Below are positions 17,067-20,376 of a DNA stretch of 20,376 nucleotides, piece after piece (position 1 is the first letter of the stretch; every line of letters starts with the position of its first letter). A program made the position numbers and the translations under genes. Source of the stretch: a virus; IMG/VR virus record IMGVR_UViG_3300025098_003706, positions 1 to 20,376 of that record, one strand, 5' to 3'. Below the pieces are notes generated by a model. The model was not told the origin of the DNA and made no database searches. It was given only the letters and a program-made list of their open reading frames with translations.

Positions 17067-17102
17067 GTTATTGATTTTAATTAGTAACAAACAAAAAATC
17101 AA
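17067..17102 (-). promoter_or_regulatory. Sigma70-like promoter with 22-base GTTA...TAAC element (copy b)
   Basis: On the minus strand a -35 box TTGATT (17097-17102) is followed by a 17-base spacer and the -10 box TAAAAT (17074-17079). The 22-base element spans 17067-17088 and ends exactly at the ATG (17066). The -35 contains the TGA stop of TerL (17099-17101). The predicted transcript start falls on or next to the A of the ATG, predicting a leaderless mRNA for the head operon. Confidence 0.7.
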
Positions 17103-18628
17103 GTACCAATATCCATTATTTCTGCTGTTGCTGGGGTTCTGTGTTGTGAGGTTGTCGCGTCATGATAAAGTAGTACATAACTCATAGCATCGAACGCATG
17201 GACATAAACACTCCGCCTTGGCTTGTATGCTAGGTTGGGGTCGTATGTCTTTCCTTGTTTCTCTGATATTAAATTCTTAAACATCTTCTTTATGTCTGTG
17301 CATTGAGCAGATACCATCAAGGCATCAGTTTGTAGCTTAGCTATAGTTATCCTAACCCTAGACTCCACACTTCCACTAAACTTTGGACACGCACGCATTC
17401 GTATTGGGTCCATATCAAATGTATCTGCTTTATCTCTTGAAATCTGCTCAATGTCCTTAACATCGTAACTTCCCGTTTTAGCACGAAATTGATTAAAAGC
17501 AGAGTTATCTGAGATATGAATATACTTAAACTTATAGTCTAGCTTACGATTCCAATATGCCATCTTCCTCATGACCAAGGGAACTAATGTAGTATATGGA
17601 AGCTTTTTGTTTATTGTAACCAACTCATCAAATACTATCCAAGGAGAGTTTGGTGCTCCTATTACATTCTGCATGAATATAACTGCGTTGTTTACAGAAC
17701 CAGGGTCCCAACCGCATATAATCGGATATTTTGTAGATGGCACTAGTCCTTTCTTTGCATCTCCTTTTAAATGGAGGGCATCACTAAAGTATGGAGTAAA
17801 TATTGCATTTCCCGCAGGGCGGTCAACCCACTCCCCTCTCACCATTCGAGCTTCTTCTATGGGGTCGGTTTTAACCGCTTCCATAATTCGGTCATAATAC
17901 CCGTCAGGCAAGTTCTCAAGGTTCTCCTCTATCTTTACATGATATACGGAATAATCTTCGTTCCACTTACCGTCTTCGTCATATGGTTCTTCAAAAAATC
18001 TTTTATATACCCAATGCTCAGGACCATCAGGATTGCAGGCTGCAAGATATTGTTGCGGCCCATGAATACCCTGCCTACGACCTAACTGCTGAACAACTGC
18101 ATTAAAGTAATCATCAGTATCCAAGTTGGTAAGCTCGTCCACAAATACCAAGCTCGGCTCAAAACCTTTAATTCTGTCCTTAATAAAAGAACCGTAAGGA
18201 ACAGATATAAGTACCACTCGAGAATATCCGCCAAAGCGATTCTTAATATCCATGTATAAATTTTTCTGTGTATCCTGCCTCTCGTCAGTATGCTCTAGGT
18301 CAATTCCATCTACCCACTCGGGCAATATCTCGACTTGCAACTTGTGCCACACCCCACCCATTGTTGCCTGTGAACGAACACCAACAATTATGAGAGCGAG
18401 AGCATTAAAATTTTCATAACAGTGTCGAACCAGTTTATGACCTCCAAGTGAGTAAGTCTTTCCGGAACCCCGCTCACCATATGCGAGTATATAATTTGAG
18501 CCATCATCAAATATCTTCCTTTGAGTAAGAGAGAGACTAGGTAACCATGGTTCTGCATTTTTGACTTCCTCCTCTGCTTCATCATCCTCGAATTGCTCAA
18601 TAAGAGCTTTGCTATTTATCTTCTTCAA
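17099..18628 (-). CDS. terL: Terminase large subunit (DNA-packaging ATPase/nuclease)
   Basis: 509 aa. It has an N-terminal ATPase with Walker A GERGSGKT (51-58), Walker B LVFVDE (160-165) and coupling motif AACNP (196-200). The C-terminal RNase H-like nuclease shows metal-binding Asp residues in GWDPG (D308), HISDNS (D374) and HAFDAMSYV (D480). It powers DNA translocation into the prohead through the portal and cuts concatemers. The start is a TTG at 18628, since no ATG or GTG is available before the ATPase core. AAGGAG lies 10 bases upstream, inside the TerS-like gene, which it overlaps by 17 bases. Full length; all key residues are present. Confidence 0.97.
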   Translation of the reverse strand: MKKINSKALIEQFEDDEAEEEVKNAEPWLPSLSLTQRKIFDDGSNYILAYGERGSGKTYSLGGHKLVRHCYENFNALALIIVGVRSQATMGGVWHKLQVEILPEWVDGIDLEHTDERQDTQKNLYMDIKNRFGGYSRVVLISVPYGSFIKDRIKGFEPSLVFVDELTNLDTDDYFNAVVQQLGRRQGIHGPQQYLAACNPDGPEHWVYKRFFEEPYDEDGKWNEDYSVYHVKIEENLENLPDGYYDRIMEAVKTDPIEEARMVRGEWVDRPAGNAIFTPYFSDALHLKGDAKKGLVPSTKYPIICGWDPGSVNNAVIFMQNVIGAPNSPWIVFDELVTINKKLPYTTLVPLVMRKMAYWNRKLDYKFKYIHISDNSAFNQFRAKTGSYDVKDIEQISRDKADTFDMDPIRMRACPKFSGSVESRVRITIAKLQTDALMVSAQCTDIKKMFKNLISEKQGKTYDPNLAYKPRRSVYVHAFDAMSYVLLYHDATTSQHRTPATAEIMDIGT

Positions 18629-19280
18629 TTTTCTTTAACTCCTTGAGTGGCATGAAGCCTGGTTTCTTTTTCTTCTTCTTCTCACTCTTCTCAGTAAGTT
18701 TAAGCATTGTCTCAAGCCCTTTAAGCATTCTGTCAAAAAACTTTCCTTGTTGCTCACACGCAGACAACATCAATCGAGTCTTTAATATTTGCTCTTCTGC
18801 GTCCATACCTCCCATTTCTAAGTCTTCTTTGAGTTTTTCAGTCACCTCAAATAATGTCATATTTTGGCGGATATTAACTTTCTGAGTAACCCTTAATGCT
18901 TCTGCCATTAACATTCCTACGGAGTCGTCAAACTCTTTAAAAATCTGAAGCTTCTCTACATTATTAGGATTTGTCAGCAAAGACTCTAAGTCCTTATTAA
19001 ACACATCCCTTGAGTTCTCCTCTAAAGCCTTAACTAATTCTTTATCTTCCGGGATAGTCGGAGGCATTGGTTTTCGAACCATCAACTCTTTCTCATCGGG
19101 CAATGGGTCATCGACTCCATTCTTTACCCAAATTGCACGAAGTTGTGGTTCTTTATATACCCTCTCCCTTACGCTCTTAGCAGTACATCCAAAATGCTCT
19201 GCTACTTTTCCATAATCCCCGTCAAAGTCTTTTAAAGCACGGGCAAGAGAATCAAATTTAATTTTAGGTGTTCGCGGCAC
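18612..19280 (-). CDS. Terminase small subunit-like DNA-binding protein
   Basis: 222 aa. An N-terminal helix-turn-helix lies at about residues 18-42 (FDGDYGKVAEHFGCTAKSVR), resembling the HTH of phage small terminases that recognise pac sites. A central helical region (about 85-205: VKALEENSRDVFNKDLESLL, FDDSVGMLMAEALRVTQKV, TRLMLSACEQQGKFFDRMLK) would form the oligomerisation core. The C-terminus is a lysine-rich stretch (KSEKKKKKKPGF). The start is GTG at 19280, overlapping the upstream stop by 17 bases; the next Met lies after the HTH. Immediate linkage to TerL supports the role. No weaker alternative is apparent. Confidence 0.82.
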   Translation of the reverse strand: MPRTPKIKFDSLARALKDFDGDYGKVAEHFGCTAKSVRERVYKEPQLRAIWVKNGVDDPLPDEKELMVRKPMPPTIPEDKELVKALEENSRDVFNKDLESLLTNPNNVEKLQIFKEFDDSVGMLMAEALRVTQKVNIRQNMTLFEVTEKLKEDLEMGGMDAEEQILKTRLMLSACEQQGKFFDRMLKGLETMLKLTEKSEKKKKKKPGFMPLKELKKIEEDK

Positions 19281-19644
19281 TTAGAATAGCTATTAGAGGT
19301 TTGAAAGTAGTCGCCCAATACGGACTCACCTTTAAGTAAGTGTATGAGGGACTAGTTCTATTGTATGCCATTGCCCTATTTCTGTCATAACAGTTAAATG
19401 GGTCGAACCCACATCCTATGCAGAAACGCTCGGCATCCCCAATAGGTATAGTGTCCCATAGGGTCTGCTTACTAATATGCCTAACCTTATCCAAGGATAG
19501 ACCTGCTCTGATTGCTATTTCTTCGTCGCTTACCGCTCGTACATGCTTAGTCGCTACTGCTTTCTTCGCTAGTAGCCTTACCAGTACTGGAGGGAATTTC
19601 TCTAAAATTCTCCACGGGTTCCTTTTGCCATCGTTCAATTTCAT
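19264..19644 (-). CDS. Small HTH protein upstream of terminase (hypothetical)
   Basis: 126 aa from the ATG at 19644 (MKLNDGKRN). The frame is open up to 19695, with another ATG at 19665. Residues about 38-62 form a helix-turn-helix (SDEEIAIRAGLSLDKVRHIS) followed by WDTIPIGDAERF and a Cys cluster CIGCGFDPFNC (75-85), perhaps a metal-binding turn. The start lies about 98 bases inside the preceding gene, because no later ATG, GTG or TTG start precedes the HTH. It precedes the TerS-like gene with a 17-base overlap. It may be a regulator or a packaging accessory. Function unknown; the HTH call is moderately sure. Confidence 0.7.
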   Translation of the reverse strand: MKLNDGKRNPWRILEKFPPVLVRLLAKKAVATKHVRAVSDEEIAIRAGLSLDKVRHISKQTLWDTIPIGDAERFCIGCGFDPFNCYDRNRAMAYNRTSPSYTYLKVSPYWATTFKPLIAILSAANT

Positions 19645-19813
19645 TTCGGACTTTCTGCATATCATTCCACTTCGGCTTTGCGTGCCCAAGTGCAATTCGT
19701 TTTTTATCTCCTGCTCTGTGTCCGCAGATTAACCAATTGTCGAAGTACTCCTCCAGTACCGGCCGCAAGCGTTCGTACAAATCGTGTGCTTCTACTTCAT
19801 CTCTTGTTGCCAT
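19547..19813 (-). CDS. Small hypothetical protein, first gene of the packaging unit
   Basis: 88 aa, not recognised. It is highly charged and mostly helical: EAHDLYERLRPVLEEYFDNW, then ICGHRAGDKKRIALGHAK, then a helix (WNDMQKVRNEIERWQKE) and a Ser/Glu-rich tail. The ATG at 19813 has AGGA seven bases upstream, one of the clearer ribosome sites in the window. A poor promoter-like pair (TTGATT 19843-19848, TAGGAT 19820-19825) is also there but overlaps the Shine-Dalgarno sequence. Its last about 98 bases are shared with the next gene in another frame. Position suggests a packaging or host-interaction accessory, without proof. Confidence 0.72.
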   Translation of the reverse strand: MATRDEVEAHDLYERLRPVLEEYFDNWLICGHRAGDKKRIALGHAKPKWNDMQKVRNEIERWQKEPVENFREIPSSTGKATSEESSSD

Positions 19814-19988
19814 TTCAAAATCCTAAAAACCAAAATACTTAAAATCAATTAATACTTATGCAGAATTTAAAGTTATTCAGAATGCCGTATGTCTGACACG
19901 TGTATGACAAATGCCTCGCGTACGCGCGCGTGTCATACGTATTCCTAAAGGAATACTAATATATATGTGCATGTCAGACATGAATGTC
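19814..19988. repeat. Nested inverted repeats between integrase and packaging genes (attP or regulatory candidate)
   Basis: This gene-free 175 bases contains ATGTCTGACA at 19889-19898 with its exact reverse complement at 19972-19981; GTATGACA at 19902-19909 with its reverse complement at 19931-19938; the palindrome CGCGTACGCG at 19917-19926; and GTATTCCT / AGGAATAC arms at 19939-19946 and 19949-19956. TGACA occurs twice, 11 bases apart (19894, 19905), and inverted as TGTCA twice (19931, 19972). The GC-rich centre stands out in AT-rich surroundings. Repeated short arms beside an integrase fit an attachment site, but an origin, a bidirectional terminator or an operator cluster is also possible. 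Confidence 0.55.
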
Positions 19989-20376
19989 TTACACACACTT
20001 GATTGTGAAATATCTTTTTGCATCAGCAGGTGAGATTCTTTCGTTTTTGTAATAGGTCTTAAATGTCGAATAATCCATGTGACCCATTGTGTGCATAGTC
20101 CACTCTAGTCCATAAACCCAATACGCATATGAACCAAAACTATGTCTAGCACCATCAGCAGGATATTTAAATCCTAACTTCTTAGCAGTACGTCTACGAT
20201 TTAGCCTCATTGCATTCCATGAACTCATAACCTTTCCTGTTTTCCGTTTTGGTATCCATGTCCATAGGTTTTTAGGTAATTCCGTGATTAGTCGCTTTGG
20301 TGTTTTAGATGCAGGGATGTCTATGCTTACTCCATGCTTGATGTGAGAATAATCTAACTTCTCCATTTCACCTTGT
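19989..20376 (-). CDS. int: Tyrosine recombinase / integrase, C-terminal catalytic part (5' end outside window)
   Basis: Open to the window edge; codons before the internal ATG at 20366 (Q-G-E) fit the 'R-x-G-E' box, so the first catalytic Arg should lie just outside. Counting from that ATG, visible active-site elements are: the beta-hairpin Lys in PASKTPKR (about 19-26), box II DGARHSFGSY (about 71-80, catalytic Arg present), the GH of TMGHMDYS (about 93-100), and the nucleophile Tyr in TFKTYYKN (about 101-108). Box II has Asp where many integrases have His (H-x-x-R). The ending (ISPADAKRYFTI) resembles integrases of Verrucomicrobiota-type bacteria. It probably mediates phage integration. 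Confidence 0.88.
   Translation of the reverse strand, partial: QGEMEKLDYSHIKHGVSIDIPASKTPKRLITELPKNLWTWIPKRKTGKVMSSWNAMRLNRRRTAKKLGFKYPADGARHSFGSYAYWVYGLEWTMHTMGHMDYSTFKTYYKNERISPADAKRYFTIKCV

Follow-up and report, generated by a model that had tools for sequence, protein, structure and literature searches.

A cluster of palindromes next to the integrase gene (int) of a tailed marine phage is real, unusually compact, and not a product of chance. The cluster looks like a place where phage proteins dock; our best guess is a protein-bound control or initiation site, where we infer both that protein binds and which protein it may be. Replication origin is the tentative first choice among the jobs that such a site could do, and the adjoining integrase very probably attaches at another place, on the far side of its own gene.

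The DNA analyzed (the window) is a virus record of 20,376 bases, a fragment in which every gene near the palindrome cluster lies on the minus strand. The order is the C-terminus of int (last 128 residues), a gap of 175 bases, p88, a 143-aa ORF, a TerS-like gene, TerL, and a portal-like gene (Table 1). The cluster lies 3′ of int, since the integrase C-terminus ends at the gap; because the window stops inside int, the 5′ side of that gene and the window's own attP are off the contig. A profile of full-length integrase relatives gave 0.0029 against PDB 5c6k (“Integrase”). The TerS-like protein had no family match and takes its name from position and N-terminus, and the promoter-like sequence ahead of p88 was too weak to be listed by a consensus promoter scan.

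Anatomy of the element

Within the 99 bases at 19887-19985, three inverted repeats are perfect over arms of at least 8 bases, a count that dinucleotide shuffling of the stretch attained in 0 of 2000 trials (shuffle mean, 0.09), and the stretch ranks top for inverted repeats among 1844 sliding windows of the contig. An earlier, sequence-only reading had counted four inverted repeats with arms of 8 to 10 bases; three are indeed perfect, and the last is a palindrome of 10 bases, CGCGTACGCG, with arms of 5. The same reading was right about two TGACA motifs spaced by 11 bases (19894 and 19905) and their TGTCA counterparts at 19931 and 19972.

The underlying unit is a box of 9 bases, TGTCNNACA, in five copies, one with its last base off; strict matches to it number six on both strands of the 20-kb window, all within 104 bases. 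An AT-rich run separates boxes A and B. Because box E and the dyad that it forms with box A belong to the element, the element reaches about 19998. The cluster is thus where it had been placed, at 19887-19985, but the true element spans roughly 19890-19998, past the end first assigned to it. Strict-box clusters were found nowhere else in the scanned genomes, and a literature text search found no paper joining TGTCTGACA, an inverted repeat, and phage.

Table 1. Features of the element and its gene neighborhood (window positions unless a locus is named)
Feature	Position	Strand	Basis
Tyrosine integrase, C-terminal part; runs off contig end	19989..20375	-	ORF; full-length relatives match phrog_1 integrase, 2e-20
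Hairpin I / dyad, arms are boxes E and A	19967..19998	-	Inverted repeat I3
Box E, TGTCTTACA	19985..19993	+	Box scan
Box A, TGTCTGACA in int direction	19972..19980	-	Box scan
Hairpin II / dyad, GTATTCC-TTTA-GGAATAC	19939..19956	-	Inverted repeat I18
Box B, TGTCATACG, last base off consensus	19931..19939	+	Sequence; inverted repeat I15 with box C
GC core, including palindrome CGCGTACGCG (19917-19926)	19914..19930	.	Alignment
Box C, TGTCATACA, 11 bases from box D	19901..19909	-	Box scan
Box D, TGTCAGACA	19890..19898	-	Box scan
Inverted repeat, 10-base arms	19889-19898/19972-19981		
Inverted repeat, 8-base arms	19902-19909/19931-19938		
Inverted repeat, 8-base arms	19939-19946/19949-19956		
Promoter-like TTGATT-17-TAGGAT before next operon	19820..19848	-	Kept in relatives
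p88, 88-aa ORF, packaging operon gene 1	19547..19813	-	Alignment of relatives
TerS-like protein	18612..19280	-	Place before TerL and helix-turn-helix-like N-terminus by eye
Terminase large subunit (TerL)	17099..18628	-	Terminase_3 1.6e-10, phrog_2 3.6e-22
tRNA-Thr(CGT) sites in relatives	L043 9774-9813 and 10968-11043; L173 1499-1549; L017 1066-1141; L042 500-575; L045 14444-14519		

Conservation and replacement among relatives

A scan of IMG/VR with the GC core returned nine contigs which, together with L028, L042, and the window, make 12 records; the element lies between int and p88 in all 12, once per genome. Over the aligned core these records reduce to seven distinct sequences, and all seven share an identical GC core, from CGCGCG through GAGG, and a constant TGTCTGAC in box A. 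The boxes hold TGTC and ACA or nearly so, with two middle bases that vary in boxes C, D, and E. Hairpin II, with the consensus GTAT-YYC-TTTA-GRR-ATAC, occurs in three forms inside GTAT..ATAC (TCC/GGA, CTC/GAG, and TTC/GAA), all pairs being kept; among the seven versions two pairs are changed on both sides and none is broken, a number of double changes that 46 of 500 shuffles also reach, so that this evidence for pairing is modest. Hairpin I is the first of five helices, with 96.7% of cells paired over the seven sequences.

Spacing from box A to the GC core is 53-56 bases in nine of nine loci; between box D and the promoter-like sequence of p88 lie anywhere from 24 to 64 bases, with no helical phasing. 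Fixed internal spacing combined with a variable promoter distance marks the element as an autonomous unit, uncoupled from that promoter, and the idea of a promoter-coupled activator site was dropped because of the same unphased variation.

A wider sample came from a TerS-based scan, which found 65 loci, 59 of them examined; left out were two contig copies (L087 and L128) and four loci cut at the contig start (L121, L122, L123, and L140). The usual order at these loci is int, gap, p88, 143-aa ORF, and TerS, with int reversed in one group. At L129-L137, where int is reversed, a tRNA-Phe-like 3′ half with pairs of GTGACAA lies between int and p88.

Three relatives (L118, L119, and L124) have a sister form of the element. 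Their gap reads GATATATC-TTTA-GATATATC and then CACGCGCGCGCGCGAGG, so that the TTTA hairpin and a CACGCGCGCG..CGCGAGG core are retained, and the boxes around them are of TGTAG type instead. The GC core in these three and in L108 takes related but shorter forms; the L108 gap holds the GC core only, followed by three AACACT units. Joint change of the boxes around a kept hairpin loop and GC core is what would be expected of protein-binding sites.

Distribution was followed with two pattern scans. Hairpin plus core matched 15 stretches in IMG/VR: ten of the window type, three of the L118 type, and two in coding sequence that look like chance. The second, a core pattern, gave 47 stretches, among which protein comparison identified only L205, the contig of L108, as a member of the family. 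The GC core is absent from 27 of the 30 relatives' gaps listed (L119 stands outside this set), and gene order is mostly kept. The pattern scan and the core-free gaps together indicate that only some members of a single phage family have the element, and only at this location. Many element-free relatives have a palindrome, CACGAA..TTCGTG, at the p88 promoter-like sequence.

In the int-p88 gap of L090, L093, L107, and L113 there are C-rich, nearly G-free repeats of about 10-12 bases in int sense, resembling Rho utilization sites, and in G011 such a gap holds the top C-over-G 78-base window of the whole genome, among 161040 on both strands. A Rho site suits these four loci; for the window, whose own gap is not C-rich, that candidate was rejected.

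Position of the attachment site

The core of an attP is identical to the host site and is usually part of a tRNA gene. The sequence-only reading envisioned the palindromes as a binding platform, whether attP arm and core sites, an excisionase/regulator site, or an origin, and held that integrated relatives with junctions elsewhere would count against it; in the integrated relatives seen here the junctions do lie elsewhere, 5′ of int, on the opposite side from the cluster. Nor was any tRNA or tmRNA identity found in the gap, where k-mer comparison gave no match to tRNA-Thr. In L043 and L044, Verrucomicrobia single-cell genomes (integrase 42% identical), phage DNA upstream of int abuts the 5′ half of tRNA-Thr(CGT) at the anticodon loop, and the 3′ half lies about 18 kb off at the opposite end, with paired TTGCCAC repeats before it. 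The same core, likewise with its paired repeats, is found 5′ of int in L090, a relative that is not integrated. A further set of relatives, examined over L235-L240, includes integrated L237 and L238 (tRNA-Phe) and L240 (tRNA-Val), in which the tRNA is again 5′ of int; no tRNA was found in L239.

Unintegrated relatives that bear the element tell the same story. A tRNA-Thr(CGT) anticodon-loop core, flanked by paired TTGTCAGC or TTGTCACC repeats, is located 5′ of int in L042, L017, L028, and L030 (the L015 contig); the corresponding place holds the 5′ half of tRNA-Thr(TGT) in L001 and, in L119 with its sister element, a tRNA-Arg-like 3′ half, the isotypes of these motifs having been read by eye. 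The integrases next to the element and its sister form have attP motifs that point to different tRNA genes, so the presence of the element does not depend on where the phage attaches. Like the attP of lambda- and P2-type tyrosine integrases it adjoins int, contains inverted repeats (among them a TTTA-centered dyad with varying arms), and spaces boxes by one helical turn; unlike them it has no tRNA-derived core, and the junctions of relatives are found across int, where element-bearing relatives have their tRNA-derived cores and paired arm repeats. That the cluster comprises the core and arm sites of the adjoining integrase is accordingly most improbable.

An attP-like layout recurs family-wide 5′ of int: pairs of arm-type repeats, spaced by about 12-13 bases, flank a core derived from a tRNA, the repeats including TTGTCACC, TTGTCAGC, TGGCAACA, GTGACAA, and TTGGCGATA. 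Repeat and tRNA differ by locus, the tRNAs being Thr, Phe, probably Arg, and others by eye. Loci with this layout are L001, L003, L005, L009, L015, L017, L028, L042, L090, L091, L093, L096, L099, L101, L103, L115, L116, L119, L129-L137, L237, and L238.

Complete tRNA-Thr(CGT) genes occur in G007, G008, G009 (L017), and L042, the L017 gene and the complete L043 copy agreeing at 76 of 76 bases. In L043 and L044 this complete gene is inside the integrated element, and the host gene is split. Such an arrangement predicts tRNA-dependent lysogeny in a Verrucomicrobiota phage family, a type of lysogeny already published for actinobacteriophages (Guerrero-Bustamante and Hatfull 2024, PMC10865867). Shared with the systems described in that paper are the short anticodon-region core, which does not rebuild the host tRNA, and the complete phage tRNA of the host isotype; the present case differs in its Verrucomicrobia host and in being predicted from sequence only. 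The word Verrucomicrobia does not occur in the text of PMC10865867, and a literature text search found no paper on a Verrucomicrobia prophage with tRNA-Thr. L042 is a phage contig of this family in a MAG titled uncultured archaeon and is probably mis-binned.

Candidate functions of the element

The proposal of a binding platform has fared better than that of an attP: repeated boxes, fixed internal spacing, and concerted change of the boxes with the core kept all point to one. An element that occurs once per genome, keeps a rigid architecture, changes its boxes in concert, and stands at no fixed distance from its neighbors suggests a self-contained nucleoprotein site. The element can be envisioned as a single-copy cis-acting DNA site that would assemble a phage-specific dimeric protein, perhaps a ribbon-helix-helix (RHH)-like phage protein, on five TGTCNNACA boxes to both sides of the AT-rich stretch and GC block. 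Its most likely single job would be to start phage DNA replication, and the substrate of that step would be the conserved hairpin with the GC core.

In iteron-type origins of phages and plasmids, short boxes cluster in both orientations beside an AT-rich stretch and a block of GC, and the whole is present in single copy. The element has this layout, its repeated-box cluster and AT-rich stretch occurring once per genome; it is unlike such origins in having few boxes (five, of 9 bases each) and in being absent from this place in most relatives. We lean to an origin of this type because the boxes flank the AT-rich stretch and because the phages own a DnaB helicase gene beside that of an RHH-like protein. 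The N-terminus of the DnaB neighbor is predicted to consist of an extended start and two helices (a poor model, mean pLDDT 65.6), and CopG and Arc, both RHH, are among its weak structural matches. RHH proteins are likewise among weak structural hits for a 74-aa protein upstream of int (model, 90.2), one ortholog of which gave 0.0026 against Pfam RHH_3, below the family cut-off; no RHH-like protein had a structural match at E 0.001. The RHH-like strand is alike in four of four aligned genomes with the element and different in six of six without the element, a pattern that descent alone explains.

A link between box and initiator is confounded by descent, and two genomes with near-identical DnaB-neighbor proteins, G014 and G022, disagree: no GGTGTCC cluster was found in the roughly 31 of 46 kb of G022 that were scanned. 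At G014:C1:40552-40660 (L180 552-660), GGTGTCC boxes in both orientations surround an AT-rich stretch, forming another compact cluster that lies between divergent genes. For the 27 of 30 relatives whose gaps lack the GC core, an essential origin would have to sit elsewhere. GC skew in a complete 78-kb relative follows gene direction only, its nearest turning point about 2 kb from the element; placing the origin by skew was given up as inseparable from gene direction. An iteron-type origin is favored over an operator, a packaging site, and a structured RNA, as a tentative choice well short of an even chance.

Nearly as likely, and so also on the doubtful side, is an operator or insulator that would control the late/packaging operon or separate it from int transcription. 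The element does lie between int and the conserved p88 promoter-like sequence, at which many element-free relatives bear the CACGAA..TTCGTG palindrome instead, and the same gap in some relatives has C-rich, G-poor repeats like those of Rho terminators; yet promoter distance varies between 24 and 64 bases, unphased, the window's gap is not C-rich, and there is no terminator-like stem, a search of 19500-20376 for a GC-rich stem with a T run having found zero intrinsic terminators. A pac or cos site at which the small terminase would initiate packaging is unlikely. It would account for the position upstream of TerS and TerL, for repeated boxes around a GC-rich center, and for the way the element travels with the packaging module and not with integrase type, and two relatives have closed circular genomes, a state compatible with headful packaging. 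Against it, the TerS N-terminus, which is helix-turn-helix-like, hardly differs between relatives whose gaps share nothing and does not track the boxes, and the G007 and G011 assemblies cross the gap. Only one of the 59 TerS contigs (65 found) begins inside the gap, with no pile-up of ends at the element, and cos ends there are disfavored on this count. G007 (L045-L048) and G011 are complete circles of about 78.2 and 80.5 kb by end overlaps of 126 and 141 bases, although classed as linear.

Of comparably low probability is an RNA structure within the 3′ portion of the int transcript, acting as a retroregulator, an RNA-processing site, or in a manner like antitermination. Six of the seven versions were folded, and in all six the int-sense strand beats shuffles (z from -4.0 to -6.2) and is more stable than the other strand, with consensus energies of -38.5 and -27.2 kcal/mol, respectively; hairpin I, moreover, keeps G-U pairs on the int-sense strand. 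The other strand of the same six nevertheless folds well too (z from -3.1 to -5.3), L118 has no strand preference, one and the same box turns up in different hairpins, and changes in the middle of box D do not preserve its pairing with box B. Rfam gave no gathering-level match in the window, L001, or L118, and only the tRNA in L042.

Returning to the replication-origin reading and its kin, the comparison of lineages hints at a more general scheme, in which the hairpin and CG-repeat core are kept and the 9-base boxes are swapped as a set with the protein that recognizes them. Such a module would be gained, lost, and replaced at the boundary of int and the packaging genes, and it is conceivable, at rather long odds, that it represents a new kind of initiation or control site.

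A striking palindrome cluster beside an integrase, then, need not be its attP. The relatives of this phage supply the anatomy of the attachment site in a phage family that is uncultured and has links to marine Verrucomicrobia. Should the origin reading be true, the element would offer a compact system in which initiator and box specificity change jointly around a constant core.
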